This document shows, piece after piece, positions 15,026-63,400 of a stretch of 64,000 bases of DNA. The position numbers and the translations under genes were made by a program. Numbering within the stretch: the first letter of the stretch is position 1; each line of letters begins with the position of its first letter. Location: NCBI GenBank assembly GCA_964019135.1, contig OZ025253.1, forward strand, positions 5,027,059 through 5,091,058. The letters are read 5' to 3'. Origin of the DNA: Arenicola marina. Its lineage: Eukaryota; Annelida; Polychaeta; Arenicolidae. The notes under the pieces are model-generated. The model was not told where the DNA came from. It searched no databases and saw only the letters and a list, made by a program, of their open reading frames with translations.

Positions 15026-15544
15026 ACTCCCAAAACCTAAGGGTTCTGCACCCATTTGGTAGGTTAAACTAAAGACAATGTATGGTATGTTACTGTATAC
15101 TGTATATTGTATGATGTATAATATAAGACGCCCGCGTTGTTTACGCCCACCCCCACCCCCAAATACACTAAGTCAATCCATATGTGACGCCCATTACCGC
15201 CCCCCCCCCCCCACCCACCTCGAGCATTCCAGGCCGGACGTAACATGAGTGCCTAGTCTCGGGGTAGGTTCTGGGTCCTCTCCCACCCATTATCGTTCTA
15301 TGACATAATTCAATACCACCGAACCCTCATGTATTGACTGTGATTGTGGTACTTCGCGTTCACACTCTTTGTAAATATGTTTTGTGTTTGTCTGCTTTGA
15401 GCTGTTGTATTTTGTGCTCCATGAATGTTTACGGACTGAGATTCTCAGGTGGTTCAAACTCAATTATATTCATCTTCATGGTATGAAATGTATTTCTCAA
15501 ATGGCATATCTTGAGTCAATATTATTGGACGAAGAGTTAATAGT
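15026..15544. other. No gene seen; poly-C run at about 15199-15212
   Basis: Possibly untranslated parts of the flanking LINEs. No boundary motif or coding region was recognised. Confidence 0.35.
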
Positions 15545-15739
15545 ATGGGTAAAATGTCCTTAGAGGAGTCCATGCTAAGACAGTTTGGCGGCGTGACGCC
15601 AAACTCTTTATGCTCGGTTCTCCAGACTGATAATGATGAAGAAGGCAGCGATGGACCAGATCTCATTAGGCACTCTCCATATTGCTCAGACGATAATTTC
15701 ATAATTACTTTTGTAAGGGACGGTTCACTGTACTACGTC

Positions 15740-16656
15740 TTAATTGTTGCTCTATCTCGGCTAAATTTGAGGAAATTAAAATATTTACAGAAAGTATGCA
15801 AAGTAAAGGTCAATATTTTTCGGTTATATGTATTCAAGAGAGCTGGCTGTCGGAGGATTGTGATACATCTCGCTTTAAGCTCAATGGCTATACCACAATA
15901 TCACAGGGTAAAGCACGCACTGCGCATGGGGGCCTTATTATATATATACGTGAAGATCTTAATTATAATATTGTGGCAAATGTTGTCGATAAAACAACAT
16001 GGGAAGGATTATTTATAGAAATATCTAGTTTTTGTTGGAACAAAAAGATTATTATTGGAAATATATATAGACCCCCATGTGAACTAATTAGTAATTACAA
16101 ACAGTTTACTGAAGAGTTCAGCCAAGCTCTCAATTCTGTAGAGAAGCACAACAAGGAGTTTGTCATAGCCGGTGATTTCAATATTGATCTCCTTAAGATC
16201 CATGAAAAACAATGCATTAGCGATTTTTTTGATATGATAACAACTCACAGTTTTTTCCCAAGAATTACGCTGCCAACACGCATATCAAGACATAGAGCAT
16301 CTCTCATTGACAATCTGTTTTGTAAAATATCATCACACACGCTTCAAGCCAATGCTGGTATACTAGTAAAAGCAATCGCGGACCATCTACAGTACTTTAT
16401 CAGTATACCACATCCTCAAGTTAAACAAATGGTTCCGAAAATGATTTTAATCAAAACCTACGACCATGATTCTGTAATGAAATTCAGAGAGGAGATAAAA
16501 TCACATGAGATCTACCACAGACTAGATAAAAATGTTAGCTCGAATCCAAATAGTAATTATGATATTGTTGAAAATCTTGTTCGAACATCCAAAGAAAATT
16601 GCCTTCCGACAGAATTAGTGAAATTCTCTAAATATAAGCATAAAAAATCAAATTGA
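15740..16656 (+). pseudogene. LINE endonuclease domain
   Basis: An exonuclease-endonuclease-phosphatase fold of LINE type: LNCCSISAKFEEI (LNCRSL motif, with the usual Arg as Cys), VICIQESWL, GGLIIYIRED, NIYRPP, AGDFNIDLL and DNLFC, followed by ADHLQYFI in place of SDH. The frame ends at TGA 16654-16656 in the linker before RT. Confidence 0.8.
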
Positions 16657-16669
16657 ATTTCCAGTGGGA

Positions 16670-29040: not shown

Positions 29041-29199
29041 ATATGACGGTCATAGTATGGTAATGGACATTACACTGCGAAATATACGCTTTCGGAGACG
29101 AACCGGTTTCGACCGCAGTGTTATTTATTTAAAGTCTAGAGGAAGACACTTTGTATATGTTTCCTTTACAATTTACCATGACAGAAGGCCTCTACACGA

Positions 29200-32100
29200 C
29201 CGGTTAGCTACGAGAGAACTCGGAGAAGTGAGCTAGGAAGGCCTCGCCAGGACTCGTTAGCTACGAAAGTTAACTTGGCCAAGTGAGTTAGGAAGGCCTC
29301 GCCAGGACCGGTTAGCTACGAGAGTTAGCTCGGAGAAGTGAGCTAGAAAGGCCTCACCAGGACTGCTTAGCTACGCGAGTTAACTCGGATACGTGCGTTA
29401 GGAAGGCCTCGACAGGACCGGTTAGCTACGAAAGTTTAATTCGGAGAAGTGCGTTAGGAAGGCCTCGCCAGGACCGGTTAGCTACGAGTGCCAGTTCGGA
29501 TAAGTAAGTTAGGAAGGCCTCGCCAGGACCGGTTAGCTACGAGAGTTAGCTCGAAGAAGTGAGTTAGGAAGGCCTCGCCAGGACTGGTTAGCTACGAGAG
29601 TTAACTCGGATAAGTGAGTTAGGAAGGCCTCGCCAGGACCGGTTAGCTACGAAAGTGTAATTCGGAGAAGTGCGTTAGGAAGGCCTCGCCAGGACCGGTT
29701 AGCTACGTTAGTTAGCTCGGAGAAGAGAGTTAGGAAGGCCTCGTCAGGACCGGTTAGCTACGAGTGTTAGCTCGAAGAAGTGAGTTAGGAAGGCCTTGCC
29801 AGGACCGGTTAGCTACGAGAGTAAGCTCGAAGAAGTGAGTTAAGAAGGCCTTGCCAGGACTGATTAGCTACGAAAGTTTAATTCGGAGAAGTGCGCTAGG
29901 AAGGCCACGCAAGGACCGGTTAGCTACGAGAGTTAGCTCGAAGAAGTGAGCTAGGAAGGCCTCGCCAGGACTGATTAGTCACGAGAGTTAACTCGGAGAA
30001 GTGAGTTAGGAAGGCCTCGCCAGGACCGGTTAGCTACGAACGTTTAATTCGGAGAAGTGCGTTAGGAAGGCCTCGCCAGGACCGGTTAGCTACGAGTGCT
30101 AGTTCGGATAAGTAAGTTAGGAAGGCCTCGCCAGGACCGGTTAGCTACGAGAGTTAGCTCGAAGAAGTGAGTTAGGAAGGCCTCGCCAGGACTGCTTAGC
30201 TACGAGAGTTAACTCGGATAAGTGAGTTAGGAAGGCCTCGCCAGGACCGGTTAGCTACGAAAGTGTAATTCGGAGAAGTGCGTTAGGAAGGCCTCGACGG
30301 GACCGGTTAGCTACGAGAGTTAGCTCGAAGAAGTGAGTTAGGAAGGCCTTGCCAGGACTGGTTAGCTGCGAAAATTTGATTCGGAGAAGTGCGTTAGGAA
30401 GGCCTCGCCAGGACCGGTTAGCTACGTTAGTTAGCTCGGAGAAGATAGTTAGGAAGGCCTCGTCAGGACCGGTTAGCTACGAGTGTTAGCTCGAAGAAGT
30501 GAGTTAGGAAGGCCTCGCCAGGACTGGTTAGCTACGAGAGTTAACTCGGATAAGTGAGTTAGGAAGGCCTCGCCAGGACCGGTTAACTACGAGAGTTAGC
30601 TTGGAGAAACGAGCTAGAAAGGCCTCGCCAGAACCGGTTAGCTACGAGAATTAATCGGAGAAGTGAGCTAGGAAGGCCTCGCCAGGACCGGTTAGCTACG
30701 AAAGTTTATTTCCTAGAAGTGCGTTAGGAAGGCCACGACGGGAGCGGTTAGCTACGAGTGTTAGCTCGAAGAAGTGAGTTAGGAAAGCCTCGACAGGACC
30801 GGTTAGCTACGAAAGTTTAATTCGGAGAAGTGCGTTAGGAAGGCCTCGCCAGGACCGGTTAGCTACGAGTGCCAGTTCGGATAAGTAAGTTAGGAAGGCC
30901 TCGCCAGGACCGGTTAGCTACGAGAGTTAGCTCGAAGAAGTGAGTTAGGAAGGCCTCGCCAGGACCGGTTAGCTACGAAAGTGTAATTCGGAGAAGTGCG
31001 TTAGGAAGGCCTCGACGGGACCGGTTAGCTACGAGAGTTAGCTCGAAGAAGTGAGTTAGGAAGGCCTTGCCAGGACTGGTTAGCTACGAGAGTTAACTCG
31101 GAGAAGTGAGTTAGGAAGGCCTCGACAGGACTGGTTAGCTACGAAAGTTTAATTCGGAGAAGTGCGTTAGGAAGGCCTCGCCAGGACCGGTTAGCTACGT
31201 TAGTTAGCTCGGAGAAGAGAGTTAGGAAGGCCTCGTCAGAACCGGTTAGCTACGAGTGTTAGCTCGAAGAAGTGAGTTAGGAAGGCCTTGCCAGGACCGG
31301 TTAGCTACGAGAGTAAGCTCGAAGAAGTGAGTTAAGAAGGCCTTGCCAGGACTGATTAGCTACGAAAGTTTAATTCGGAGAAGTGCGCTAGGAAAGCCAC
31401 GCAAGGACCGGTTAGCTACGAGAGTTAGCTCGAAGAAGTGAGCTAGGAAGGCCTCGCCAGGACTGATTAGTCACGAGAGTTAACTCGGAGAAGTGAGTTA
31501 GGAAGGCCTCGCCAGGACCGGTTAGCTACGAACGTTTAATTCGGAGAAGTGCGTTAGGAAGGCCTCGCCAGGACCGGTTAGCTACGAGTGCTAGTTCGGA
31601 TAAGTAAGTTAGGAAGGCCTCGCCAGGACCGGTTAGCTACGAGAGTTAGCTCGAAGAAGTGAGTTAGGAAGGCCTCGCCAGGACTGCTTAGCTACGAGAG
31701 TTAACTCGGATAAGTGAGTTAGGAAGGCCTCGCCAGGACCGGTTAGCTACGAAAGTGTAATTCGGAGAAGTGCGTTAGGAAGGCCTCGACGGGACCGGTT
31801 AGCTACGAGAGTTAGCTCGAAGAAGTGAGTTAGGAAGGCCTTGCCAGGACTGGTTAGCTGCGAAAGTTTAATTCGGAGAAGTGCGTTAGGAAGGCCTCGC
31901 CAGGACCGGTTAGCTACGTTAGTTAGCTCGGAGAAGATAGTTACGAAGGCCTCGTCAGGACCGGTTAGCTACGAGTGTTAGCTCGAAGAAGTGAGTTAGG
32001 AAGGCCTCGCCAGGACTGGTTAGCTACGAGAGTTAACTCGGATAAGTGAGTTAGGAAGGCCTCGCCAGGACCGGTTAACTACGAGAGTTAGCTTGGAGAA

Positions 32101-35100
32101 GTGAGCTAGAAAGGCCTCGCCAGAACCGGTTAGCTACGAGAATTAATCGGAGAAGTGAGCTAGGAAGGCCTCGCCAGGACCGGTTAGCTACGAAAGTTTA
32201 TTTCCTAGAAGTGCGTTAGGAAGGCCACGACGGGAGCGGTTAGCTACGAGTGTTAGCTCGAAGAAGTGAGTTAGGAAAGCCTCGACAGGACCGGTTAGCT
32301 ACGAAAGTTTAATTCGGAGAAGTGTGTTAGGAAGGCCTCGCCAGGACCGGTTAGCTACGAAAGTTTAATTCATAGAAGTGCGTTAGGAAGGCCTCGACGG
32401 GACCGGTTAGCTACGAGAGTTAGCTCGAAGAAGTGAGTCAGGAAGGCCTTGCCAGGACTGGTTAGCTACGAAAGTTTAATTCATAGAAGTGCGTTAGGAA
32501 AGCCTCGACGGGACCGGTTAGCTACGAGAGTTAGCTCGAAGAAGTGAGTTAGGAAGGCCTCGACAGGACCGGTTAGCTACGAAAGTTTAATTCGGAGAAG
32601 TGCGTTAGGAAGGCCTCGCCAGGACCGGTTAGCTACGTTAGTTAGCTCGGAGAAGATAGTTAGGAAGGCCTCGTCAGGACCGGTTAGCTACGAGTGTTAG
32701 CTCGAAGAAGTGAGTTAGGAAGGCCTCGCCAGGACTGGTTAGCTACGAGAGTTAACTCGAATAAGTGAGTTAGGAAGGCCTCGCCAGGACCGGTTAGCTA
32801 CGAAAGTGTAATTCGGAGAAGTGCGTTAGGAAGGCCTCACCAGGACCGGTTAGCTACGAGAGTTAGTTTGGAGAAGTGAGCTAGAAAGGCCTCGCCAGAA
32901 CCGGTTAGCTGCGAGAGGTAATCGGAGAAGTGAGCTAGGAAGGCCTTGCCAGGACCGGTTAGCTACGAAAGTTTAATTCATAGAAGTGCGTTAGGAAGGC
33001 CTCGACGGGACCGGTTAGCTACGAGAGTTAGCTCGAAGAAGTGAGTTAGGAAGGCCTTGCCAGGACTGGTTAGCTACGAGAGTTAACTCGGAGAAGTGAG
33101 CCAGAAAGGCCTCGCCAGAACCGGTTAGCTACGAGAGTTAATCGGAGAAGTGAGCTAGGAAGGTCTTGCCAGGACCGGTTAGCTACGAAAGTTTAATTCA
33201 TAGAAGTGCGTTAGGAAGGCCTCGACGGGACCGCTTAGCTACGAGAGTTAGCTCGAAGAAGTGAGTTAGGAAAGCCTCGACAGGACCGGTTAGCTACGAA
33301 AGTTTAATTCGGAGAAGTGCGTTAGGAAGGCCTCGCCAGGACCGGTTAGCTACGGAAGTTTAATTCATAGAAGTGCGTTAGGAAGGCCTCGACGGGACCC
33401 GGTTAGCTACGAAAGTTTAATTCGGAGAAGATAGTTAGGAAGGCCTCGTCAGGACCGGTTAGCTACGAGTGTTAGCTCGAAGAAGTGAGTTAGGAAGGCC
33501 TCGCCAGGACTGGTTAGCTACGAGAGTTAACTCGGATAAGTGAGTTAGGAAGGCCTCGCCAGGACCGGTTAGCTACGAAAGTGTAATTCGGAGAAGTGCG
33601 TTAGGAAGGCCTCACCAGGCCCGGTTAGCTACGAAAGTTTAATTCATAGAAGTGCATTAGGAAGGCCTCGACGGGACCGGTTAGCTACGAGAGTTAGCTC
33701 GAAGAAGTGAGTTAGGAAGGCCTTGCCAGGACTGGTTAGCTACGAGAGTTAACTCGGAGAAGTGAGTTAGGAAGGCCTCGACAGGACCGGTTAGCTACTA
33801 AAGTTTAATTCGGAGAAGTGCGTTAGGAAGGCCTCGCCAGGACAGGTTAGCTACGTTAGTTAGCTCGGAGAAGAGAGTTAGGAAGGCCTCGTCAGGACCG
33901 GTTAGCTACGAGTGTTAGCTGGAAGAAGTGAGTTAGGAAGGCCTCGCCAGGACCGGTTAGCTACGCAAGGTAACTCGGAGAAGAGAGTTAGGAAGGCCTC
34001 GTCAGGACCGGTTAGCTACGAAGTTTAATTCGGAGAAGTGAGCTAGGAAGGCCTCGACAGGACCGGTTAGGTACTAAAGTTTAATTCGGAGAAGTGCGTT
34101 AGGAAGGCCTCGCCAGGACCGGTAAGCTACGTTAGTTAGCTCGGAGAAGAGAGTTAGGAAGGCCTCGTCAGGACCGGCTAGCTACGAGTGTTAGCTGGAA
34201 GAAGTGAGTTAGGAAGGCCTCGCCAGGACCGGTTAGCTACGTAAGGTAACTCGGAGAAGAAAGTTAGGAAGGCCTCGTCAGGACCGGTTAGCTACGAAAG
34301 TTTAATTCGGAGAAGTGAGCTCCGAAGGCCTCGCCAGGACCGGTTAACTACGAAAGTTTAATTCGGAGAAGTGCGTTAGGAAGGCCTCGCCAGGACCGGT
34401 TAGCTACGAGAGTTAGCTCGGAGAAGTGAGGTAGGAAGGCCTCGCCAGAACCGGTTAGCTACGAGAGTAAATCGGAGAAGTGAGCTAGAAAGGCCTCGCC
34501 AGGACTGGTTAGCTAGGAAAGTGTAATGCGGAGATGTGCGTTAGGAAGGCCTTGCCAGGACCGGTTAGCTACGAAAGTTTAATTCGGCGAAGTGTGTTAG
34601 GAAGGCCTCGACGGGACCGCTTAGCTACGAGAGTTAGCTCGAAGAAGTGAGTTAGGAAAGCCTCGACAGGACCGGTTAGCTACGAAAGTTTAATTCGGAG
34701 AAGTGCGTTAGGAAGGCCTCGCCAGGACCGGTTAGCTACGAAAGTTTAATTCATAGAAGTGCGTTAGGAAGGCCTCGACGGGACCGGTTAGCTACGAGAG
34801 TTAGCTCGAAGAAGTGAGTCAGGAAGGCCTTGCCAGGACTGGTTAGCTACGAAAGTTTAATTCATAGAAGTGCGTTAGGAAAGCCTCGACGGGACCGGTT
34901 AGCTACGAGAGTTAGCTCGAAGAAGTGAGTTAGGAAGGCCTCGACAGGACCGGTTAGCTACGAAAGTTTAATTCATAGAAGTGCGTTAGGAAGGCCTCGC
35001 CAGGACCGGTTAGCTACGTTAGTTAGCTCGGAGAAGATAGTTAGGAAGGCCTCGTCAGGACCGGTTAGCTACGAGTGTTAGCTCGAAGAAGTGAGTTAGG

Positions 35101-37535
35101 AAGGCCTCGCCAGGACTGGTTAGCTACGAGAGTTAACTCGGATAAGTGAGTTAGGAAGACCTCGCCAGGACCGGTTAGCTACGAAAGTGTAATTCGGAGA
35201 AGTGCGTTAGGAAGGCCTCACCAGGACCGGTTAGCTACGAAAGTTTAATTCATAGAAGTGCGTTAGGAAGGCCTCGACGGGACCGGTTAGCTACGAGAGT
35301 TAGCTCGAAGAAGTGAGTTAGGAAGGCCTTGCCAGGACTGGTTAGCTACGAGAGTTAACTCGGAGAAGTGAGTTAGGAAGGCCTCGACAGGACCGGTTAG
35401 CTACTAAAGTTTAATTCGGAGAAGTGCGTTAGGAAGGCCTCGCCAGGACCGGTTAGCTACGTTAGTTAGCTCGGAGAAGAGAGTTAGGAAGGCCTCGTCA
35501 GGACCGGTTAGCTACGAGTGTTAGCTGGAAGAAGTGAGTTAGGAAGGCGTCGCCAGGACCGGTTAGCTACGTAAGGTAACTCGGAGAAGAGAGTTAGGAA
35601 GGCCTCGTCAGGACCGGTTAGCTACGAAAGTTTAATTCGGAGAAGTGAGCTGGGAAGGCCTCGCCAGGACCGGTTAACTACGAAAGTGTAATGCGGAGAT
35701 GTGCGTTAGGAAGGCCTTGCCAGGACCGGTTAGCTACGAAAGTTTAATTCGGCGAAGTGTGTTAGGAAGGCCTCGCCGGGACCGGTTAGCTACGAGAGTT
35801 AACTCGGAGATGTGAGTTAGGAAGGCCTTGCCAGGACTGGTTAGCTAGGAAAGTGTAATGCGGAGATGTGCGTTAGGAAGGCCTTGCCAGGACCGGTTAG
35901 CTATGAGAGTAAATCGGAGAAGTGAGATAGGAAGGCCTTGCCAGGACCGGTTAGCTACGAGAGTTAACTCGGAGATGTGAGTTGGGAAGGCCTCGCCAGG
36001 ACCGGTTAGCTACGAGAGTTTAATTCGGCGAAGTGTGTTAGGGAGGCCTCGCCGGGACCGGTTAGCTACGAGAGTTAACTCGGAGATGTGAGTTGGGAAG
36101 GCCTCGCCAGGACCGGTTAGCTACGAGAGTTAACTCGGAGATGTGAGTTGGGAAGACCTCGCCAGGACTGGTTAGCTACGAGAGTAAATCGGAGAAGTGA
36201 GCTAGGAAGGCCTCGCCAGGACTGGTTAGCTAGGAAAGTGTAAGGCGGAGATGTGCGTTAGGAAGGCCTTGCCAGGACCGGTTAGCTACGAAAGTTTAAT
36301 TCGGCGAAGTGTGTTAGGAAGGCCTCGCCGGGACCGGTTAGCTACGAGAGTTAACTCGGAGATGTGAGTTAGGAAGGCCTTGCCAGGACTGGTTAGCTAG
36401 GAAAGTGTAATGCGGAGATGTGAGTTAGGAAGGCCTTGCCAGGACCGGTTAGCTACGAGAGTAAATCGGAGAAGTGAGCTAGGAAGGCCTCGCCAGGACT
36501 GGTTAGCTAGGAAAGTGTAAGGCGGAGATGTGCGTTAGGAAGGCCTTGCCAGGACCGGTTAGCTACGAAAGTTTAATTCGGCGAAGTGTGTTAGGAAGGC
36601 CTCGCCGGGACCGGTTAGCTACGAGAGTTAACTCGGAGATGTGAGTTAGGAAGGCCTCGCCAGGACCGGTTAGCTACGAGAGTTAACTCGGAGATGTGAG
36701 TTAGGAATGCCTTGCCAGGACCGGTTAGCTACGAGAGTTAACTCGGAGATGTGAGCTAGGAAGGCCTCGCCAGGACCGGTTAGCTACGAAAGTTTAATTC
36801 GGAGAAGTGCGTTAGGAAGGCCTCACCAGGACCCGTTAGCTACGAGAGTTAACTCGGAGATGTGAGCTAGGAAGGCCTCGCCAGGACCGGTTAGCTACGA
36901 AAGTTTAATTCGGAGAAGTGCGTTAGGAAGGCCTCACCAGGACCGGTTAGCTACGAGAGTTAACTCGGAGATGTGAGCTAGGAAGGCCTCGCCAGGACCG
37001 GTTAGCTACGAAAGTTTAATTCGGAGAAGTGAGTTAGGAAGGCCTCACCAGGACCGGTTAGCTACGAGAGTTAACTCGGAGAAGTGCGTTAGGAGGGCCT
37101 CGCCAGGAAAGGTTAGCTACGAGAATTAGCTCGGAGAAGTGAGTTAGGAAGGCTTCGCCAGGACCGGTTAGCTACGAGGGTAAATCGGAGAAGTGAGCTA
37201 GGAAGGCCTCGCCAGGACCGGTTAGCTACGAGAGTTTAATTCGGAGATGTGAGCTAGGAAGGCCTCGCCAGGACCGGTTAGCTAGGAGAGTTAGCTCGGA
37301 GAAGTGAGGTAGGAAGGCCTCGCCAGGACTGGTTAGCTACGAGAGTAAATCGGAGAAGTGAGCTAGGAAGGCCTCGCCAGGACCGGTTAGCTACGAGAGT
37401 TTAATTCGGAGATGTGAGCTAGGAAGGCCTCGCCAGGACCGGTTAGCTAGGAGAGTTAGCTCGGAGAAGTGAGGTAGGAAGGCCTCGCCGGGACCGGTTA
37501 GCTACGAGAGTTTACTCGGAGAAGTGATGTACCAA
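29200..37535. repeat. 8.3-kb minisatellite with a roughly 55-bp unit
   Basis: About 150 copies of a 54-56 bp unit containing GGACCGGTTAGCTACGA, then GTTAGCTCGAAGAAGTGAG and TTAGGAAGGCCTCGCCA. Variant units (AAAGTTTAATTCGG, GAGAGTTAACTCGG, TTAGTTAGCTCGG) recur in the same order, giving higher-order structure: blocks repeat at about 1.49 kb (29743 and 31235) and at about 1.6 kb (33796 and 35401). Stop codons occur in all frames, so it is non-coding. Confidence 0.95.
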
Positions 37536-41879: not shown

Positions 41880-42658
41880 AATCGTTTCAGGGTCTCCCTG
41901 AGGTAGTGGTGTCAGGGCCCCCCTGGTGTAGTGGTGTCAGGGCCTCCCTGGTGTAGTGGTGTCAGGGCCTCCCTGGTGTAGTGGTGTCAGGGCCTCCTTG
42001 GTGTAGTGGTGTCAGGGCCTCCCTGGTGTAGTGGTTTCAGGTCATCCCTGGTGTAGTGGTGTCAGGGCCTCCCTGGTGTAGTGGTGTCAGGGCCTCCTTG
42101 GTGTAGTGGTGTCAGGGCCTCCCTGGTGTAGTGGTGTCAGGGCCTCCCTGGTGTAGTGGTGGCAGGGCCTCCCTGGTGTAGTGGTGTCAGGTCCTCCCTG
42201 GTGTAGTGGTGTCAGGGCCTCCCTGGCGTAGTGGTGTCAGGGCCTCCCTGGTGTAGTGGTGTCGGGGCCTCCCTGGTGTAGTGGTGTCAGGTCATCCCTG
42301 GTGTAGTGGTGTCAGGGCCTCCCTGGTGTAGTGGTGTCAGGGCCTCCCTGGTGTAGTGGTGTCAGCGCATCCCTGGTGTAGTGGTGTCAGGGCCTCCCTG
42401 GTGTAGTGGTGTCAGGGCCTCCCTGGTGTAGTGGTGTTAGGGCCTCCCTGGTGTAGTGGTGTCAGGGCCTCCCTGGTGTAGTGGTGTCAGGGTCTCCCTG
42501 AGGTAGTGGTGTCAGGGTCTCCCTGGTGTAGTTGGGTCAGGGCCTTCCTGGTGTAGTGGTGTGAGGGTCTCCCTGGTGTAGTGGTGTCAGGGCCTCCCTG
42601 GTGTAGTGGTGTCAGGGCCTCCCTGGTGTAGTGGTGTCAGGGCCTCCCTGGTTTAGGT
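41880..42658. repeat. 25-bp minisatellite made of a pol III A-box-like motif
   Basis: About 31 copies of a 25-bp unit (GGCCTCCCTGGTGTAGTGGT plus GTCAG). Each unit contains TGGTGTAGTGG, which fits the A-box consensus TRGYNNANNNG exactly, and matches the head of the SINE at 37640-37890 on its minus strand. No B-box occurs in the unit. Confidence 0.95.
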
Positions 42659-45230: not shown

Positions 45231-45401
45231 TCAGGTGCGCTCGCTAGCCGGAATCAAGCCGTCGATCCACGTGTGGTACCTGGTGACCCTGGCGTAGACT
45301 CCGGGTAAACCGGACGCGCATCCGTACCCCCCGGACACAGCGCCCACTAGGTGGAACTTGTCGTCCCGATCCTGGATCACCAGGGGTCCGCCGGAGTCTC
45401 C
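45231..45401 (-). CDS. Protease exon: catalytic Ser and C-terminus
   Basis: 171 nt including TGA. It encodes [10 protein letters not shown] (Ser195), then [20 protein letters not shown] and [14 protein letters not shown], ending ASERT. Trp215 of the usual SWG reads Gly, and Cys201 reads Ile, matching the loss of Cys136 in the earlier exon. The acceptor GATCCAG lies about 30 bp from a SINE insertion. Confidence 0.9.
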
Positions 45402-48400
45402 CTGGATCGCGAGAAACAGATACATGGCAACGGTTGGTTGGTTATGTACGACGCTTTAACCACTTTTAGTAATATCGTGTCAATGGGAGAAGGCGAAGGA
45501 AGGGAGAGTGGAGCCATGTCCCCCGGGGGCAACCCCCTAATCGTTACGAAAAAAGACATGGGATCTGTATTCTGCGACCACACAGCCATGACCACAGTGG
45601 GGCTCGAACCACCGATCCAAGTGCCCTTAGGCTCTCAGGTGACCAGAACACTCAATGCATGGCAACGGTTCTGAGGTTCTAAGGGTTCATTTGGCAGATG
45701 AAAGGGGGTGGGGGGGCAAGGGTATTTCCGTTCCTCGGGAATGGGCTTTTCATTTCACCGTAGGAACGAGGACAATATTTCTTCGTGAACTGGGAATGAG
45801 ATATCAACCGGCCTTCGTGATCAAGGCTTTTCATTATTCGTGGACCGATAATGTTTACCATGTATTCGCCCCTTCCATTGTATACATTTAATTCATCTTG
45901 ACCTGGGAATAAAGACATGAAATTTATTCTTCGTGGCTTGGGAACACCCTTGATCTGCCTAGATGGCGAGATGCTCGTCTTGGTCTGGCCAGATGGTGAG
46001 AGGTCCACCCTTGTTCGGCCTAAGTAGTGAGAGACCAGCCCTTGTTCTGGCTAGATGGTGAGAGACCGAGCCTTTATATAGCTAGATGGTGAGAGACCCG
46101 CCCTTGGTCTGGCAAGATGCTGAGAGACCGGGCCTTCGTATGGCTAGATAGTGGAGACCCGCCCTTGGTATGGTTAGATGATGAGAGACCCGACCTTGGT
46201 CTGGCTAGATAGTGAGAGGCCCGCCCTTGGTCAGGTTAGATGGTGAGAGGCCCGCCCTTGGTCTGGCTATATAGTGAGAGGCCCGCCCTTGGTCTGGTTA
46301 GATGGTGAGAGATCCACCCTTGGTCTGGTTAGATGGTGAGAGGCCCGCCCTTGGTCTGGCTATATAGTGAGAGGCCCGCCCTTGGTCTGGTTAGATGGTG
46401 AGAGATCCACCCTAGGTCTGGCTATATAGTGAGAGGCCCGCCCTTGGTCTGGCTATATAGTGAGAGACCCGCCCTAGGTCTGGCTAGATGGTGAGAGGCC
46501 CGCCCTTGGTATGGCTAGATGGTGAGAGGCCCGCCCTTGGTATGGCTAGATGGTGTTAGACCCGCCCCTGGTGCGGCTAAATTGTGCGAGACCCACCCCT
46601 GGTCCGACGTTTCCATTAGTCACGTACCATGAAGAAAACACCGATACGTTTCACGTAGCTGACGGGCATACATTTGCACAAGTGGGTATCGAACCACGTA
46701 CGTGATATACGCCTCCATGAGTCACGTACCTGACATACGTCTCCATGAGTCACGTACCTGACATACGTATCCATGAGTCACGTACCTGACATACGTCTCC
46801 ATGAGTCACGTACCTGACATACGTCTCCATGAGTCACGTACCTGACATACGTCTCCACGAGTCACGTACCTGACATACGTCTCCATGAGTAACGTACCTG
46901 ACATACGTCTCCATGAGTCACGTACCTGACATACGCCTCCATGAGTCACGTACCTGATATACGTCTCCATGAGTCACGTACCTGACATACGTCTCCATGA
47001 GTCACGTACCTGACATACGTCTCCATGAGTCACGTACCTGACATACGTCTCCATGAGTCACGTACTTGACATACGCCTCCATGAGTCACGTACCTGACAT
47101 ACGTCTCCACGAGTCACGTACCTGACATACGTCTCCATGAGTCACGTACTTGACATACGTTTCCACGAGTCACGTACCTGACATACGTCTCCATGAGTCA
47201 CGTACCTGACATACGTCTCCATGAGTCACGTACTTGACATACGTCTCCATGAGTCACGTACCTGACATACGTCTCTATGAGTCACGTACCTGACATACGT
47301 CTCCATGGGTCACGTACCTGACATACGTCTCCATGAGTCACGTACCTGACATACGTCTCCATGAGTCACGTACTTGACATACGTCTCCACGAGTCACGTA
47401 CCTGACATACGTCTCCATGAGTCACGTACCTGACATACGTCTCCACGAGTCACGTACTTGACATACGTCTCCATGAGTCACGTACCTGACATACGTCTCC
47501 ACGAGTCACGTACCTGACATACGTCTCCATGAGTCACGTACTTGACATACGTCTCCATGAGTCACGTACCTGACATACGTCTCCATGAGTCACGTACCTG
47601 ACATATGTCTCCATGAGTCACGTACCTGACATACGTCTCCATGAGTCACGTACTTGACATACGTCTCCATGAGTCACGTACCTGACATACGTCTCCATGA
47701 GTCACGTACCTGACATACGTCTCCATGAGTCACGTACCTGACATACGTCTCCCATGAGTCACTGTGAGCCACCTACCTGAAACACGTCTTCATGAGTCAA
47801 GTACTTGACGAGGGCTGACGATGTCGCCCTCGCGTTCAGTGAGTCACGTATCTGGCCATGTCACCCTGGTTGTCGCCGGTGCACACCATGTTGGCGGTGA
47901 TGGGTCTGGGGGTCACGCACCTGACAGGCGTCCCTGACGACGTCGCCCTGGTTGTCCTCGGCAAACACCATGTTGGCGGTGACGGGTCTGGGGGTCACGT
48001 ACCTGGCATGAGTCCCTGACGACGTCACCCTGGTTGTCCCCGGCACACATCATGTTGGCGGTGATGGGCGTGGTGACGAGAGCGGCATAGCCTGTGGCGC
48101 AGTCAGCGTTGGTGGTGATATTCAGCGACGTGTAGAGCAGGACGTCCGGCGAAGAGCCCCCTGTGGACATGACACGCACCGATCACTATAGAGACATCGG
48201 CGTCATGTAACTGACTATGTGTGTGAACTAGCCCGGCGGCTGACCTGCCAACTGGTATCATTGTTGTCAGTAATCCGCGAAAGAAGACAATACAGATATG
48301 AAATGCACAATCTTAGCAATGATGACGATTACTCATCATGTGGCTCCCTCTTGATCGTTGTAAAATTGTATATAGAACACATGGTGTCATCCAAGTTACT

Positions 48401-51400
48401 CGGTTCCTGAAAGGATACGTGGTTTTCCGACCACTGTTTGTCATTTGTATCATTGTATTTTGACGCCAAAAAGGAAGCGAGGGAAGAGCGAATAGAACAT
48501 TTGGTCATTTCTTTTAAAACATAGTGTATGCACTATTTGCTCTATAATCGTAAATGCTAATATGTTCTATAACCAAAGGAGAATTTACTATAGCAATAAC
48601 GCAGTCCACGTCTACTAATTTGTCTAGGCGGCGTGCCTGGCGCCACCCCATAAGCAGCTTGCTTTTCTCACAGGCAAAGAGGAACGTAGTACGTCATATT
48701 TCCAGTACCATATCGTGCCGTTTTCCCGTTCACTGTCATCTTCATAGCATGTAACATTTGTAATATAATTCATGAATTTTAAAGGCAAATAATTCATATA
48801 GTCGGTGTCATCTTCTTTTTGAACCTTCAAGCGGACATTATGATGTTGAGGTGCCGTATTCTCTAACGTGTCTTCATACATAATATACATAAAAACAACA
48901 GGCATTTCATTAAATATGGAACTCGTTAAGAAAGGATATATTTGCATGTTCTAACCAATATTCCCAGAAGGAATCCCCCGCCCTGCAATATGAACTACTC
49001 CATAGCACCCTACACATGAATCTGGGTATGATCTGCCGTAGTCCGAAGTCCTCAAGAAGACAAGAATTGTTTTGCGTATGAGAAACTTCCTATAATTTTT
49101 ATAGTTCATATATCTGTGTTATTGTGCCAGTTCTGGTAAGCGCAGTCCAATAGCCGTTGAATCTGTGTAGAGACCAAGCTAGTTTGGTGAGGCGCAATTT
49201 TGTTTGTGGTCACGGGGAGGTCACAATGTTTTTATTAGTTCCTGCGATGGACTTGATTTCTTTTCTATTTCTTGATCTGCAAAACGTTTAATAGTACGAG
49301 GGTCTGATTACGAGATAGAAAACATTGATCCTCTTTCTATAACATGCAAGGTAATATTTTTTTCTAAACTAATTCAGAGCCAGCTTTGTGTTTTACAAAA
49401 AAAAACATCCACACACCCTGGATATACAATGGTCCTTCCCTAACTACCATTGTTACCAGCCCCGTGATTGGTGGAACGCCGACTCAGGAACCGGGCGTTA
49501 AGCTTGTTGCCAGCCTAGCGTGTTTCGCCCATAATTTATTACAAACCCGTTTAGCTCCATCTCGTGGTCGGAACCAGACAGGCAGTTATATACTTGTATA
49601 CTGTTCTCACCTAAAATAAGCTACAGTTTCCCAGAAACATATGCGATTAGTTATCAAATAAAATATCTAGATGAATAATGCTTTTCTATGTGACAAGGAA
49701 AAGACAAATGAAAAAAACTCCAAGGTTTCTACAACATTGGTCAGTATTGCTGCAGCCCGTTCCTTGACGGATGGCGGGCTCACAGGAAAGGAGTAGTGCA
49801 TGGGTTGCCCAGTTACCTGTGTCCCTGTTCTCACTGAGAACTGAGAATGGCATCTGAAAAATGTTACCTCAAGTCTGCTTCTTAGTCACGGGCAGAAGAA
49901 ATTCTAATTATAACGACTCGGGTCAGTCTCGCCTTAATTAAAAACTTCCTTAATAAATAAAATAAAAGCATATACAATATCCCTATCACCTGACAGCGTG
50001 ACTAATTTGTTGGCGACGTTTGTATCTTAGACCTTATACTGTAAATCGGGTACACTGAGCGACACCCCCCGCCCCCACACACACACACCTCCCCCCCCCC
50101 TCCCCCCCAAAAAAGCGGCCACAACAGAAGACCAAACTCACCGAAAGAGGTTGCTCCCCACCCACTAGCGACAGCTCTCTGATGGGCATAGTCCTCGTCA
50201 AAACACGGGGCGCAGACGGGGAAGACCTGAGGTGACAAAGTAATTGGCGCCTGAAGGCGGATGAGAGCGATGTCGTTGTTAGTGTTGGCTGCATCGTAAT
50301 CAGAATGCACGTAGATGTTGCTGATGAAATGAAAGGCCTCCGTGCCCTCGGAGGTGGGCCAGTGGTGCTCGCCGAGCCACAGTGCCCGGGGTTGGTCCGT
50401 GAAGGCCACGGCGCAGTGAGCCGCCGTCACCGCCCAATAACGGTTAATGATGGACGCTCCACAGAAGTGATAGACGTACTGGTCGTCATATGTGACGAAG
50501 GACGCCTGCAAATAACGGAATTGTGCACTGTTCTTCACTGTACATATCTAATACCAAATCTTATCACTGTATGTCATTACTTGTAATATGTATATATATA
50601 TATAGTGTCATTAATTGTAACGTATATATATATATATATATACCAATGCAGGCTTCCATAAAATATATGCTACAGAATCCTCTTCACAATGAAAGCTGTT
50701 GTACACAGTTCATGTGACGGATTTCATTACATCATGAGAAATCTGAATATGATTTAGCTTGATTTGTTTGGCGTCGAAATCGCTAATGTCATTGCTTAAC
50801 TAATCCTACTTTCACAGAGCCACTTTCTCCAAGACTTTTCTCCAAAATACATTGAAACTAATGAACATGGAAAATGGTTGTATGAGCAGAGTTAAAGAAC
50901 GTTTTCAAGCATTCATATCAGTTAAACGACTTAGCAAACTGAGCCAATTTTATGTCTTTTCCTTTTCTATAAATGGTATTGCATTGCCTGATGGTAACTA
51001 ATATTTCTACTAGTCCTGCAAATAATTAGGACCGCAACCCCTCGTTTGGTTATATATTCACCCCCCCCCCCCCCACGCCCTCCACACCCACACACAGACC
51101 CCTTACCTGCCAGGGGAATTCATTGGGTCTGGCCTGCTGTCCTCCCACAATGCGGGCGGCCGGGAGTTCCATGTTACCAGCGTCCGGGTAGGCGCTGACA
51201 CCGCAGTCTCCGCCAGCTGAGGAAGAACATGACATACAGCACATTGTGTGGATGAGGGGGGACAGATAGGGTCGCAGAGTTGGATAGCATCCACTTCTCC
51301 ATCCTTTGTCGTCCATTGGTTAGATTTGCTCCAGATTGCTTCTTTTAATACTAAAGTTTGAGACATGAGACCGGGTCACCGTTTGGGAACAATGATCTTG

Positions 51401-54400: not shown

Positions 54401-57400
54401 AAATCCATCTTTTAGTAATATGGTTGAATGCATTATGCAATTTATCCTTACAATTGAATTTTCAAAATTGTGTATTAGGCGAACGTAAGATCTTATACAG
54501 CTAACTCATTAATGATGTATTTGTAATAACCAAATATATATATATAGATGTAAATGGATGAATATAGTTCCCAATTTTTTCTTTATTAAGAACACGATTA
54601 TATATCATTATAAATTGGAAAAGTACACGTCGAAAATCTCCACCTTTGCAAAGAAATGGGATCCCCTCTCAAACTCTTTAATGCTTAGCAAAACTGTAAT
54701 GTGAATTGACGAACTTGTTGTAAGTCTGGATGTTGTTATACATGGAAATAGAAATAAAAACTTACAAGACTCAACCGATTCCATGAATAGACAACAAATA
54801 TTCACCACTTGTCCTTGGGAGAAAACATGCTTCGACGAATGGGTGTGGTATTGGGAATACTGCTCAATTGCATAAGAAAACCATCCACCAAGAAAGCGAG
54901 GCTGACGTCCAGCCTAATTCATGTCTGGGGCATGACACATAAGCAGTATTTGGAAATGACTATATGATGTCAGCTGCAAGGGGTTAGGATTCAATTGAGT
55001 ACCCGGGAACCCGGACGATCAAGTGTGCAATAAATAATCCACGGAAGGGGGGTTTACCATGTAAGGATCGGCGGCAAACTGTTGGCAGTTCATTACCTGA
55101 TGTCTTCAACCTCAACCACCATGTTGGTATCCGGGAAGTGTTCGTCGATGACGCCTTGCACCTGTTGGATAGACATATGTACAGCGTCATCATTGCTTAT
55201 CTTATGATATATACTTTATTTCCAGGATAAATAGTATCGCATTATAAATGTACAGTTGTATACGGGATCTCAAACTTTGTTTAGTCCAATGCAAGTTACA
55301 AGCACAAATAAACGCATTATGCGTTAATTCGTCTCCATATATTGATCAATGTGGCAAATTCATATGCAAATAATGCACTTGCACATCAGGTGTCTGGTTT
55401 GGTATTGTGAATTAACTTCCGTTGTACTAGCATCAGCTTTATCACTATATAAGACAGTTGTATTGCATAATTCATCTTATGAATCTGTTGACACTAAGTA
55501 CCTTCGTATGAAACTTTGTCTTTCATCTACCGAATAATGTACTGTAATATCATGCTTTCATTCTGTATCTGAAATCTTGTTTTTGATGTACCGTGTTCTG
55601 TAACATTATTATGGAAAAAAAATCAAGTATCTTTGGGAATCGATTTTGCTTTTTTTTTTCACCGCTAGGACGCCAACACACTCATCGATTATCAACACGG
55701 TGAAAGTTACAATGTAATGAACCCACCGCCGCAATGAATCTGTTCTCGATGTCCTCCCTGACAGCGGGGTCGCTCAGGTCTGGCGCGTTGTCCCCGACGT
55801 CAAAGTGAACCTCACCCCTGAATCTCATCTCTGAAGAAAGGACAAGAATTAACACTTCCAGCTCTGATCGTCACCGTTAGCCAACTGTTTTGCCATGCAT
55901 GCGAAATCCCGAGAAGCGAGTCCCGCGACAAACTTCTCTTGTGAGTGACGCTCATACTACTGTGGTTGGCAGGGAGAAAATGTCAAAAAAAATTTAAAGT
56001 GCATCATAATTTCTATCGATAATGGGATATCGATTGACTGGAATTAAAGATAAGACATATGACAAGTGCAACGCCGAACATTTCATTCACGCTATATTTT
56101 GAAGTAGGGAAAACTGACAGATTCCCTTCGTTTTCCGGATAAACATTAGCCTACTGTTATCTACTCATATATAGATTGTTTGCACTTAAGATTTATAAAC
56201 ACGCGCTAGATACACTGTCCAAATTTTTTAATGTGTTACCTCTTTAAGAAGTGTATATTTTATTAATGTTACGTGATGGAATATTGGTTTATGCAGAAAT
56301 AAAACAACAAGGCCAAAGAAAGAAAAGCGTATGTTTGTCCATTTTCAGCGGTTGTTAAAACCGATGAAAGTGTACTACACACGAAAGTGTCACTTCCCCA
56401 CGTGAGTGGCACTGGACAAAATATTTGGAACTTTAACTATTGCAAATGTTTTCCATCCATACAAAACGGTTGTAAGTGCAGCACTGTGCAGTTGATACCA
56501 ATTGGTACCAGCACCAATGTTCCCACATTCAAGGATACATCGACATCTGGCACGGTCCTCCCTCTTAGTCGCACCATCATGCAAGGGTCACTAGCGGTCG
56601 CTACTTTTGTTGAGGGTGGTGCCTTGGGGGAGGGATGGTGCGGGGGGGGGGGGGGTGGAGGGGAGGGGGAAATACATCACCTGATTCATTTTCGCAGAGG
56701 TCCCCCTCGTAGCCATTTGGACACGCGCACTGGACGTCGCCCGGTCCGGTGGAGCTGCAGGTACCTCCGTTCTGACATGGGTTGTCCCAGCAGTTATCTG
56801 GAATAGCCAGTGCGATAATAGACGTGGTTTATTATATATAGTTATAATTGATAATTGAGAATAGCATATGTGATCGTATTTATAGCTTGCATACCTTTCG
56901 TAGCATAACAATACGGGGGTGATAAAACCGTTGTTTTGTGTACGGTATTATTATTATATGTTTCTTCTTCTTTTGAAAGGGATAATTCGACACAGTCTCG
57001 ACACAGACATATTAATGAAATCAACATTCGGCATTGACCCCCACATTCCGACACGAAATCGGAAAGAGGGACATCGACACGGTATTTTGGAAAAAACGAC
57101 ACTGAATTTAGCCGAAAAGCGACACAGAACGTCGTAAAAAATCGACACTCGACACTGAGAATTTGTAATAATCGACACGGGACACTGCCACCCCCCCCCC
57201 CCTTCCAGACTCATATCTTTTGCTTTGTCATACTTTGTGATACATTCCTGATTATAATAAAACATGGCAAACATTCAACTGAGTGCCGACGTGTTCTCTC
57301 CAATTTTTCATTTATTCAGGATTGATGTGTTTTGCAGCGGAATAAAGCCCCGAAACTGTCACATGGCTTCCCATAGCATCCGCGCAGGGGTTTCCCACTA

Positions 57401-60400
57401 CATGACTTCCCATAGCATCCGCGCAGGGGTTCCCCACTACATGACTTCCCATAGCATCCGCGCAGGGGTTCCCCACTACATGACTTCCCATAGCATCCGC
57501 GCAGGGGTTCCCCACTACATGACTTCCCATAGCATCCGCGAAGGGGGCCCCACTACATGGCTTCCCATAGCATCCGCGCAGGGGTTCCCCACTACATGGC
57601 TTCCCATAGCATCCGCGCAGGGGTTCCCCACTACATGGCTTCCCATAGCATCCGCCCAGGGGTTCCCCACTACATGACTTCCCATAGCATCCGCGCAGGG
57701 GGCCCCACTACATGGCTTCCCATAGCATCCACGCAGGGGTTCCCCACTACATGACTTCCCATAGCATCCGCGAAGGGGGCCCCACTACATGGCTTCCCAT
57801 AGCATCCGCGCAGGGGTTCCCCACTACATGGCTTCCCATAGCATCCGAGCAGGGGTTCCCCACTACATGGCTTCCCATAGCATCCGCGCAGGGGTTCCCC
57901 ACTACAAGACTTCCCATAGCATCCGCGCAGGGGTTCCCCACTACATGACTTCCCATAGCATCCGGGAAGGGGGCCCCACTACATGGCTTCCCATAGCATC
58001 CGCGCAGGGGTTCCCCACTACATGGCTTCCCATAGCATCCGCGCAGGGGTTCCCCACTACATGGCTTCCCATAGCATCCGCCCAGGGGTTCCCCACTACA
58101 TGACTTCCCATAGCATCCGCGCAGGGGGCCCCACTACATGGCTTCCCATAGCATCCACGCAGGGGTTCCCCACTACATGACTTCCCATAGCATCCGCGAA
58201 GGGGGCCCCACTACATGGCTTCCCATAGCATCCGCGCAGGGGTTCCCCACTACATGGCTTCCCATAGCATCCGAGCAGGGGTTCCCCACTACATGGCTTC
58301 CCATAGCATCCGCGCAGGGGTTCCCCACTACAAGACTTCCCATAGCATCCGCGCAGGGGTTCCCCACTACATGACTTCCCATAGCATCCGCGCAGGGGGC
58401 CCCACTACATGGCTTCCCATAGCATCCGCGCAGGGGTTCCCCACTAGATGGCTTCCCATAGCATCCGCGCAGGGGTTCCCCACTACATGGTTTCCCATAG
58501 CATCCGCGCAGGGGTTCCCCACTACATGACTTCCCATAGCATCCGCGCAGGGGTTCCCCACTACATGACTTCCCATAGCATCCGCGAAGGGGGCCCCACT
58601 ACATGGCTTCCCATAGCATCCGCGCAGGGGTTCCCCACTACATGACTTCCCATAGCATCCGCGCAGGGGTTCCCCACTACATGGCTTCCCATAGCATCCG
58701 CGAAGGGGGCCCCACTACATGGCTTCCCATAGCATCCGCGCAGGGGTTCCCCACTACATGGCTTCCCATAGCATCCGCAAAGGGGGCCCCACTACATGGC
58801 TTCCCATAGCATCCGCGAAGGGGGCCCCACTACATGGCTTCCAATGGCATCCGCGAAGGGGGCCCCACTACATGGCTTCCCATAGCATCCGCGCAGGGGT
58901 TCCCCACTACATGGCTTCCCATAGCATCCGCGAAGGGGGCCCCACTACATGGCTTCCCATAGCATCCGCGCAGGGGTTCCCCACTACATGGCTTCCCATA
59001 GCATCCGCGAAGGGGGCCCCACTACATGGCTTCCAATGGCATCCGCGAAGGGGGCCCCACTACATGGCTTCCCATAGCATCCGCGAAGGGGGCCCCACTA
59101 CATGGCTTCCCATAGCATCCGCGAAGGGGGCCCCACTACATGGCTTCCCATAGCATCCCCGCAGGGGTTCCCCACTACATGGCTTCCCATAGCATCCGCG
59201 AAGGGGGCCCCACTACATGGCTTCCCATAGCATCCGCGAAGGGTTCCCCATTATATGGTATCCCATAGCATCTGCGAAGGGGGCCCCACTACATGGCTTC
59301 CCATGGCATCCGCGAAGGGGGCCCCACTACATGGCTTCCCATGGCATCCGCGAAGGGGGCCCCACAACATGGCTTCCCATAGCATCCGCGAAGGGGGCCC
59401 CACTACATGGCTTCCCATAGCATCCGCGAAGGGATTCCCCACTACATGACTTCCCATAGCATCCGCGAAGGGGTTCCCCACTACATGGCTTACCATAGCA
59501 TCCGCGAAGGGGGCCCCACTACATGGCTTCCCATAGCATCCGCGAAGGGGTTCTCCACTACATGACTTCCCATAGCATCCGCGCAGGGGTTCACCACTAC
59601 ATGACTTCCCATAGCATCCGCGCAGGGGTTCCCCACTACATGACTTCCCATAGCATCCGCGAAGGGGGCCCCACTACATAGCTTCCCATAGCATCCGCGA
59701 TGGGATTCCCCACTACATGACTTCCCATAGCATCCGCGAAGGGGTTCCCCACTAGATGGCTTCCCATAGCATCCGCGAAGAGGGCCCCACTACATGGCTT
59801 CCCATAGCATCCGCGCAGGGGTTCCCCACTACATGACTTCCCATAGCATCCGCGAAGGGATTCCCCACTACATGACTTCCCATAGCATCCGCGAAGGGGT
59901 TCCCCACTACATGGCTTACCATAGCATCCGCGAAGGGGGCCCCACTACATGGCCTCCCATAGCATCCGCGAAGGGGTTCCCCACTACATGACTTCCCATA
60001 GCATCCGCGCAGGGGTTCCCCACTACATGGCTTCCCATAGCATCCGCGAAGAGGGCCCCACTACATGGCTTCCCATAGCATCCGCGCAGGGGTTCCCCAC
60101 TACATGACTTCCCATAGCATCCGCGAAGGGGGCCCCACTACATGGCTTCCCATAGCATCCGCGAACAGATTCCCCACTACATGACTTCCCATAGCATCCG
60201 CGAAGGGGTTCCCCACTACATGGCTTCCCATAGCATCCGCGAAGGGGGCCCCACTACATGGCTTCCCATAGCATCTGCGCAGGGGTTCCCCACTACATGA
60301 CTTCCCATAGCATCCGCGCAGGGATTCCCCACTACATGGCTTCCCGTAGCATCCGCGAATGGGGCCCCACTACATGGCTTCCTATAGCATCCGCGAAGGG

Positions 60401-63400
60401 ATTCCCCACTACATGACTTCCCATAGCATCCGCGAAGGGGTTCCCCACTACATGGCTTACCATAGCATCCGCGAAGGGGGCCCCACTACATGGCTTCCCA
60501 TAGCATCCGCGAAGGGGTTCTCCACTACATGACTTCCCATAGCATCCGCGCAGGGGTTCACAACTACATGACTTCCCATAGCATCCGCGCAGGGGTTCCC
60601 CACTACATGACTTCCCATAGCATCCGCGAAGGGGGCCCCACTACATAGCTTCCCATAGCATCCGCGAAGGGATTCCCCACTACATGACTTCCCATAGCAT
60701 CCGCGAAGGGTTCCCCACTACATGGCTTCCCATAGCATCCGCGAAGGGGGCCCCACTACATGGCTTAACATAGCATCCGCGAAGGGGGCCCCACTACATG
60801 GCTTCCCATAGCATCCGCGAAGGGGTTCCCCACTACATGGCTTACCATAGCATCCGCGAAGGGGTTCCCCACTACATGGCTTCCCATAGCATCCGCGCAG
60901 GGGTTCCCCACTACATGACTTCCCATAGCATCCGCGCAGGGGTTCCCCACTACATGACTTCCCATAGCATCCGCGAAGGGGGCCCCACTACATAGTTTCC
61001 CATAGCATCCGCGATGGGATTCCCCACTACATGACTTCCCATAGCATCCGCGAAGGGGTTCCCCACTACATGGCTTCCCATAGCATCCGCGAAGGGGGCC
61101 CCACTACATGGCTTCCCATAGCATCCGCGCAGGGGTTCCCCACTACATGACTTCCCATAGCATCCGCGAAGGGATTCCCCACTACATGACTTCCCATAGC
61201 ATCCGCGAAGGGGTTCCCCACTACATGGCTTACCATAGCATCCGCGAAGGGGGCCCCACTACATGGCTTCCCATAGCATCCGCGAAGGGGTTCCCCACTA
61301 CATGACTTCCCATAACATCCGCGCAGGGGTTCCCCACTACATGGCTTCCCATAGCATCCGCGAAGAGGGCCCCACTACATGGCTTCCCATAGCATCCGCG
61401 CAGGGGTTCCCCACTACATGACTTCCCATAGCATCCGCGAAGGGGGCCCCACTACATGGCTTCCCATAGCATCCGCGAAGGGATTCCCCACTACATGACT
61501 TCCCATAGCATCCGCGAAGGGGTTCCCCACTACATGGCTTCCCATAGCATCCGCGAAGGGGGCCCCACTACATGGCTTCCCATAGCATCTGCGCAGGGGT
61601 TCCCCACTACATGACTTCCCATAGCATCCGCGCAGGGATTCCCCACTACATGACTTTCCATAGCATCCGCGCAGGGGTTCCCCACTACATGACTTCCCAT
61701 AGCATCTGCGAAGGAGTTCCCCACTACATGGCTTCCCATAGCATCCGCGAAGGGGGTCCCCACTACATGGCTTCCCATAGCATCTGCGAAGGGGTTCCCC
61801 ACTACATGGCTTCCCATAGCATCTCCGAAGGGGGTCCCCACTACATGGCTTCTCATAGCATCCGCGAAGGGGTTCCCCACTACAAGGCTTCCCATAGTAT
61901 CTGCGAAGGGGTTCCCCACTACATGGCTTCTCATAGCATCTGCGAAGGGGGTCCCCACTACATGGCTTCTCATAGCATCCGCGAAGGGGTTCCCCACTAC
62001 ATGGCTTCCCATAGCATCCGCGAAGGGGTTCCCCACTACATGGCTTCCCATAGCATCCGCGAAGGGGTTCCCCACTACATGGTTTTGCCATTGAGAAACC
62101 GTCGGCCGATACTGGACTTGTCTGTAGAGACGGGTTAAATTTATTTCAACCTATGCACCGAGGCGGCAGCTAAGGGGCCTGGAAGGGATAAATGGCTAGG
62201 GGCCTGGAAGGGATAAATGGCGACACGCGACACGGGCATATTTGAATAATCGACACAGAACGCCGTTCAAAATAGACAGTCGACACTGAGAATTTAGAAA
62301 AATCGACAAAAACCGCCCCCCCCCCTCCCACCCCATCCAGACACCTGTCAATACGTTATAACCGACAGTTGAGAGACGAAGGATCAGAACATGACATGTG
62401 CGCCCTAGGATGACATGCAACCTTCTAAAGTGTCGTGTATGTGATACAGATTGTCCGTAATCATCCTTGTTAACGCGGTGAATAGTATTTATGTATGTGC
62501 TATGTTACATTGTGGTGTCCTAGTGATGCTGGTGTGGTGGAAGTGAGCAAGCGCGTGTCTGCGCAAACATCAACTTTACATATACATTATGAACTCTTGT
62601 ATTATTTCCTGGCATTTGCTGGACGCATCATTGGACTTATGTACAATATATATATATGTCATCACATTTAAAAGGGCCCGAAAATTCGGCGATATCCATT
62701 TTTGTATGAAATTGTATTGACGAAGATTCATCAGCTCGGCCAAACAATGTGTCTTAAGAACATACCCTCTTATGTGTTATGTACAATAGATGTGTTGTTA
62801 TACACTACTAACCTATAGACATTATATCCATTCAACACATTTAAAACGTTTCTCAGAAAAAAAACCAATTGCTGTATATAACATTAAACGGTAACGTCCA
62901 TTGCGTTTTCGTTTTAGATCACTGATCAGCCTCACCGACTGTTCATATCGTTCTCCGCACAGCTATGGCTGTTATTTTTGATACTGCATGTTTATTCATT
63001 ACAACATTGCTCTACTATCAATTTCCCCCCACAATCTTCTCTTATTGCCTTACCTACGAAATTCTTCACATCTTCACCATCGACGTTACATAAGTCACCA
63101 CTGTCGCAGCAACTCTTGCACTTCTGCTTGGTTCCCACGCACGTGATGTCGCCCGAGGCGTCGCACTTCTTGGGGTAGCAGCCCTTGGTGTAGAGGTAAC
63201 CGCCGTTTTTGGCAGTCACAGACGTCTTGCAGGTCTCGCCAGGCGCGCACGTAATCGTCGGGCGGCCGTCGCAATCAGCCTCCGATGAGTCCTTCCTGCA
63301 GTTGTGGCACTGCAGTACTGCCAGTGCAACCATAGGCGGCCATTTGATCCATCGATATAACCATAAATTCTTACCCCATATGTTATTCACCCATCCACCC

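Follow-up and report, generated by a model that had tools for sequence, protein, structure and literature searches.

Junction-spanning minisatellites of the mirage type in a protease gene of the annelid Arenicola marina and in other genes of its genome

The window analyzed here, a stretch of 64,000 nucleotides of Arenicola marina DNA (C6:5027059-5091058 in a genome of 867 Mb), carries three exons of a trypsin-like serine protease gene on its reverse strand. In the genome at large, an annelid affinity is suggested by a match to the erythrocruorin linker family, seen in 0 of 14 controls (perhaps all prokaryotic), and by the mitochondrial gene order, read partly by eye and set beside known orders. 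The penultimate exon, translated, matches serine proteases (best PDB match E 4.3e-06), and the three exons combined by manual joining match Pfam Trypsin at 2.7e-52. At its 3′ end the penultimate exon reads GACTCATGCCAG, followed by the authentic donor and intron start GTACGTGA, and behind it lies an intron of 2601 bp that is host to several tandem repeats. In window coordinates and in the order in which the gene is read, the features are as follows (a slash marks an exon–intron junction here and below):
50142..50547, reverse strand: upstream exon region of the same protease gene, containing ..TAAHC..
48003..48160, reverse strand: penultimate exon of the trypsin-like serine protease gene, ending ..DSCQ/GTACGTGA (authentic donor)
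47860..48068, reverse strand: 82-bp repeat, 2.5 copies, holding the exon 3′ end, the donor and the intron start
47763..47859, reverse strand: bridging units of ~47 and ~39 bp with donor-like words, between the 82-bp and 28-bp repeats (by eye)
46695..47762, reverse strand: 28-bp junction-derived array, 38.1 copies, unit GTACGTGACTCATGGAGACGTATGTCAG in the sense direction (Tandem Repeats Finder)
45947..46604, reverse strand: second array, 31 bp x 21.3 copies (Tandem Repeats Finder)
45231..45401, reverse strand: last exon with stop and GDSGGPL active site, after the acceptor GATCCAG

No junction origin was seen for the 31-bp array at 45947..46604, and the upstream exon, whose donor is TCG/GTGAGT at 50141, has no array within the 340 bp that follow. 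The window holds other repeats besides: minisatellites of 55 bp x 151 (29184-37527) and 39 bp x 122 (57361-62082), and a 25-bp array at 41887-42656 with the unit CCTGGTGTAGTGGTG, presumably resembling a tRNA A-box region and perhaps the head of a SINE. By eye, frames at 774-2330 (reverse strand) and 12671-18414 (forward strand) look like pieces of LINE-type endonuclease and reverse transcriptase, and one open frame of 325 aa at 10994-11971 (forward strand) is carbohydrate sulfotransferase-like.

The 28-bp array had drawn attention in the initial annotation as some 38 units sharing an 11-nt stretch with the gene's own donor, and this description holds. Tandem Repeats Finder gives 95% matches among its units (46695-47762). 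Of the 30 occurrences of the 11-mer CAGGTACGTGA in the window, 29 fall in the array and one is the real donor (47995-48005), whereas shuffles predict a count of 0.02; on that expectation a chance origin of the donor word is rejected. Walking the array in fixed steps yields 37 units, all of which keep the GT (37/37): 29 carry the exact 11-mer, 7 carry CAAGTACGTGA and 1 carries CAGGTACGTTA.

The same annotation proposed that the exon–intron junction had been captured and amplified. In outline, the sequence comparisons support this: 82-bp intermediates, paralogues and unrelated genes all point the same way. The detail differs, in that the 28-bp unit is, judged by its letters, a shortened derivative of the 82-bp junction-spanning repeat that still adjoins the exon. 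The first 82-bp unit is the exon end itself, so that the array begins at the authentic junction, in the window and likewise in the paralogues. The 28-bp unit corresponds to the two ends of an 82-bp unit, namely the intron start GTACGTGACTCATG and the exon end GAGACGTATGTCAG; its exon-derived half reads GAGACGTATGTCAG where the 82-bp units have GGGACGCCTGTCAG. When it is set against the ends of three family units, two of 82 bp and one of 50 bp, 21, 23 and 21 of its 28 letters agree, a level that 0 of 2000 shuffles reached in each of the three comparisons (best of 28 rotations each). Given this agreement, the word GACTCATG, which had been taken for a captured piece of the exon end, is more likely intron than exon: within the unit it sits 3′ of the donor, and it matches the intron start GTACGTGACTCA of the paralogues. 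Its capture from the exon end is accordingly rejected. The 82-bp units in the gene cluster described below mostly share GACGCCTGTCAG with the paralogues. At the end of the real exon, GACTCATGCCAG or GACGCATGCCAG now stands instead; the array therefore probably predates the present exon end.

The window gene is one of ten near-identical copies at C6 4.92-5.46 Mb, all ten of which carry the array (10/10) and the last exon (10/10). The copies lie in one orientation across C6:4.915-5.465 Mb, spaced roughly 39 to 112 kb apart, and the cluster is a recent segmental amplification. In these copies, from a single individual, the 28-mer arrays range from 27.1 to 38.1 copies by Tandem Repeats Finder; for the 82-mer the same program counts 4.7 and 8.7 copies in two genes, and a word count finds 2 units in each of the remaining eight, with three of the ten introns covered without their 3′ ends. 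Across the cluster, 331 of 332 28-bp units retain the GT and 252 of 332 the exact 11-mer. Three diverged paralogues, located by a protein search that is blind to splice words, have their own junction repeats (82, 82 and 50 bp) at the same intron. A further set of repeats emerged among relatives traced by their last exon, of which 4 of 6 carry arrays belonging to another junction, the one that closes the SGWG-containing exon:
C6:2404607: paralogue with 18 donors, all CAG/GTATGTGA, in 82-bp steps; last exon intact
C6:1954960: paralogue with 41 donors in 50-bp steps; last exon intact
C6:14.68 Mb (C6:14677000-14679800): paralogue with 6 donors at intervals of about 82 bp; last exon EDYGGP
C6:3.59, 3.73, 3.76 and 7.10 Mb: SGWG-junction arrays, two with 57-bp units (2.3 and 6.8 copies), two with 36-bp units (34.3 and 17.6 copies), the sequence examined at 3.59 Mb beginning inside the array

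In the paralogue at 14.68 Mb (locus L069), EDYGGP stands at about 1840-2015 where GDSGGP is expected. The catalytic serine would thus be gone, and the product is probably a pseudoenzyme. Six relatives matched by their penultimate exon (four on C2, one each on C11 and C18) show no array within 420 bp behind the donor; the comparison took in these six and left out seven other matches. Among the last-exon relatives, the SGWG-junction array was not found in the stretch examined of L094 and L095. L090 and L095 have 40-bp arrays (about 1782-2408 and 1598-2421, respectively) that stop 12 to 15 bp short of the last protease exon's acceptor; in sequence they are similar to the acceptor side of an intron, but lack the AG. 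It is possible that these represent a counterpart of the junction arrays at the 3′ end.

Junction arrays are not confined to proteases. Ten arrays on C1, being those among the matches listed by two donor-word searches (four, plus six new), were inspected: six begin exactly where an apparent coding exon has its donor, one probably does, two are ambiguous (57.18 and 76.37 Mb) and one does not. No exon was seen at the C1 array at 31.54 Mb. The cases assigned to genes or reading frames, together with one array drawn by a control word, are:
C1:605000-613800: aldehyde dehydrogenase, 39-bp junction array of about 6.3 kb, read in part
C1: antistasin-family gene, 34-bp junction array, Pfam domain in the preceding exon
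C1: kinase-like gene, 68-bp junction array, Pfam 26.0 bits, below the curated cut-off of 31.7
C1: transmembrane exon, 44-bp junction array
C1: rapsyn, 46-bp junction array
C1: HUWE1, 53-bp junction array, the PDB match being to an upstream exon
C1: probable case, 27-bp array at a transmembrane-like reading frame, then a 42-bp array (the search target)
C1:13748900-13750300: axonemal dynein heavy chain, 42-bp array beginning at the donor (backwards control word)

A second junction array, of 28 bp, lies in the same aldehyde dehydrogenase gene two exons further on. No solved structure matched the kinase-like exons, and the transmembrane exon with the 44-bp array has no family match in Pfam. In the dynein case, an array picked by a word without splice content is thus a junction array as well. 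In all, arrays are found at 14 junctions in 8 kinds of gene, counting cluster copies and SGWG locus pairs once.

How common such arrays are across the genome depends on how one looks. Surveyed with donor-side words, a narrow pattern (gap 22-23, GTAAGT) gives 1 match and its backwards control 6, whereas two wider patterns give 4975 against 1409 and 3331 against 794, these totals being matches inside arrays rather than numbers of arrays. The enrichment is therefore dependent on the pattern. On C1, the forward word leads to at least 7 arrays (up to 76.37 of 77.0 Mb) and the backwards word to 1. By extrapolation, the genome should hold tens of such arrays with the strict word, and perhaps hundreds with all forms of the donor. 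A bolder generalization, that donor junctions in this annelid lineage are favored birthplaces of minisatellites through a duplication process tied to transcription or splicing, in tens to hundreds of genes, with a strict exon-proximal rule making the rows harmless, is conceivable, but we hold it only tentatively and would sooner bet against it.

The reading that best accommodates these observations, to which we assign a probability of roughly 0.77, is that the array is a junction-spanning, mirage-type minisatellite whose exon-proximal donor is most likely the one used, the arrays being neutral passengers. The order of events and the manner of duplication would be as follows. In what was probably a shared ancestor of several of the paralogues, a tandem duplication of 82 bp would have taken in the exon end, the donor and the intron start. 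With splicing still directed to the copy adjoining the exon body, the extra copies would have become intronic immediately. Thus relegated to the intron, they could expand through slippage or unequal exchange, become homogenized and lose pieces, with the unit shortening from 82 to about 50 and then to 28 bp. The array would have no function of its own, and the same process would have operated at many junctions of this genome.

Use of the first donor is what we infer from reading frame, homology and constraint. As the initial annotation foresaw, use of a decoy shifts the frame or meets a stop: in the window gene, 38 of 39 decoys lead to a stop and 1 of 39 to a frameshift. In three protease genes the toll is complete (39/39, 17/17 and 40/40), leaving 0 of 96 decoys with an open in-frame reading. 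Yet the protease exons evolve under constraint: over two exons in three protease paralogues, dN/dS is 0.238/0.69, 0.327/1.24 and 0.328/1.13 (104-108 codons), or about 0.3. With decoys ruinous and exons constrained, correct splicing should prevail. The most likely reason for the first donor to win is exon definition, which the long introns here fit. In a database study of human events with near-equal donors, exon definition is reported to favor the upstream site and intron definition the downstream one; shorter exons are favored, and the upstream preference is mild, 60% overall (PMC9225289). A preference of 60% is too mild against dozens of competitors, and an extra factor must therefore be assumed; exonic enhancers or the order of transcription may supply it.

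An alternative is that the decoys act: donors in the array could bind U1 snRNP, compete with the true site or slow removal of the intron, and so lower or tune expression via nonsense-mediated decay of mis-spliced RNA. The computed energies are compatible with this, as the duplex with U1 comes out at -8.7 kcal/mol for the true donor and for full-11-mer decoys alike (compared with -14.0 for the consensus and -2.8 for the CAA variant), and both the near-universal retention of GT and the ruinous outcome of every decoy in three protease genes speak for it. Conservation within the arrays speaks against it. In a circular-shift comparison on four arrays, a weak test on homogenized repeats, nine-letter blocks as invariant as the donor or more numbered 10 of 28 in the window, 16 of 50 at C6:1954960, 18 of 82 at C6:2404607 and 49 of 82 in two cluster copies. 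Strong conservation of the donor within arrays is rejected by these counts, and it is because the donor letters display no excess conservation, with the same caveat, that neutrality is favored. Array length, moreover, differs among near-identical copies, and RT-PCR in amphioxus, as reported, suggests no interference of comparable repeats with regular splicing (PMC3087553, PMC3902484). A decoy role is thus not supported at the level of sequence, and we consider it unlikely.

Less likely still is that the arrays create alternative exon ends and hence protein variants. Unit length is a multiple of three in 4 of 14 array types (57, 36, 39 and 42), and over the donor words of these the frame, read on from the exon through the sequenced parts examined of each array, is open in 10/10 cases (39-bp), 5/5 (42-bp), 2/2 and 6/7 (57-bp, two copies) and 5/11 (36-bp), so inner donors there could give longer proteins. 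Against a general role of this kind, the other 10 of 14 types (82, 82, 50, 28, 28, 34, 68, 44, 46 and 53) are not multiples of three, which is about chance, and the three protease genes, the window's included, offer no decoy that would extend the protein. The converse notion, that unit lengths avoid multiples of three, is rejected by the same 4 of 14.

A splice ratchet, in which units ending YAG/GT would let a second splice, made from the first donor, undo a wrong inner one, gains some appeal from the CAG directly before GT in most 28-bp units and in the 50-bp and 82-bp units, but by eye no clear polypyrimidine tract precedes the unit CAG and some 28-bp units end in CAA, which leaves it highly improbable. 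Least credible is an ordinary intronic minisatellite with donor likeness by chance, for although the window is rich in minisatellites, most without a junction known here, the 30 matches far exceed the shuffle expectation, and intermediates, paralogues and unrelated genes share the anchoring at a junction.

The junction-spanning minisatellite of the window is a firmly anchored example of a kind already known, though little studied, and one far more widespread in this genome than a single gene. Choice among identical competing 5′ splice sites has mostly been studied with two sites in a reporter. The three protease genes, each with 17 to 40 additional donors that equal or nearly equal the true one, amount to a natural experiment on splice-site choice, to which arrays elsewhere add other kinds of gene, units of 28 to 82 bp and varied intron lengths. 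The findings suggest that mirages are not peculiar to amphioxus and can outlast both gene duplication and protein divergence. In genomes that bear them, gene prediction may be misled.

Repeats of this architecture were reportedly named mirages in a 2002 paper. The initial annotation knew of no named class, a view that does not survive comparison with the mirages of amphioxus (PMC3087553, PMC3902484) and the 31-bp VNTR of human CBS (PMC2630376), which, as described, share the architecture. Amphioxus mirages are repeats across exon–intron boundaries, described in Adh3, the globins BflGb6 and BflGb9, PGBD5 and troponin C; like the arrays here they have boundary-spanning units, with AG/GT signals in many. 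Their units measure 10 to 160 bp, and their length varies (PMC3087553, PMC3902484). Splicing is reported to be undisturbed by them, with which the reading frame and dN/dS found here would agree. Units in the window and the paralogues hold both exon and intron sequence of their own junction, as in mirages. The differences lie in host and scale: mirages, in these reports, were described in cephalochordates, whereas here they occur at 14 junctions of 8 gene kinds in an annelid genome, with 41 donors in one array, about 6.3 kb in another, and one array kept through the divergence of paralogues.

The CBS VNTR has been tied to altered splicing, and is said to be associated with lower CBS activity. 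Its name, c.1444_1467+7(16_21), implies 24 nt of coding and 7 nt of intron sequence; it is likewise boundary-spanning, with 16-21 copies that vary between people (PMC2630376), but it is one human locus set against many junctions here. Recent duplicates among human segmental-duplication paralogues likewise contain minisatellites, some at exon–intron boundaries; half of those repeats are reported to alter coding sequence, and intron gain has been proposed (PMC2812944). In the genes described here no new introns came to notice. Within annelids, no report of mirages was found among the matches listed from the open-licence literature. The nearest case among them is intron 1 of earthworm metallothionein, likewise with large intronic minisatellites, though with a mean unit of about 180 bp and no junction-spanning origin stated in the account available; duplications of the fourth exon are described there as absent from the transcript (PMC12783039). 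In essence, the class itself is already known, and what is new is its presence in an annelid genome, the number of genes involved, the size of the arrays and their persistence through gene divergence.
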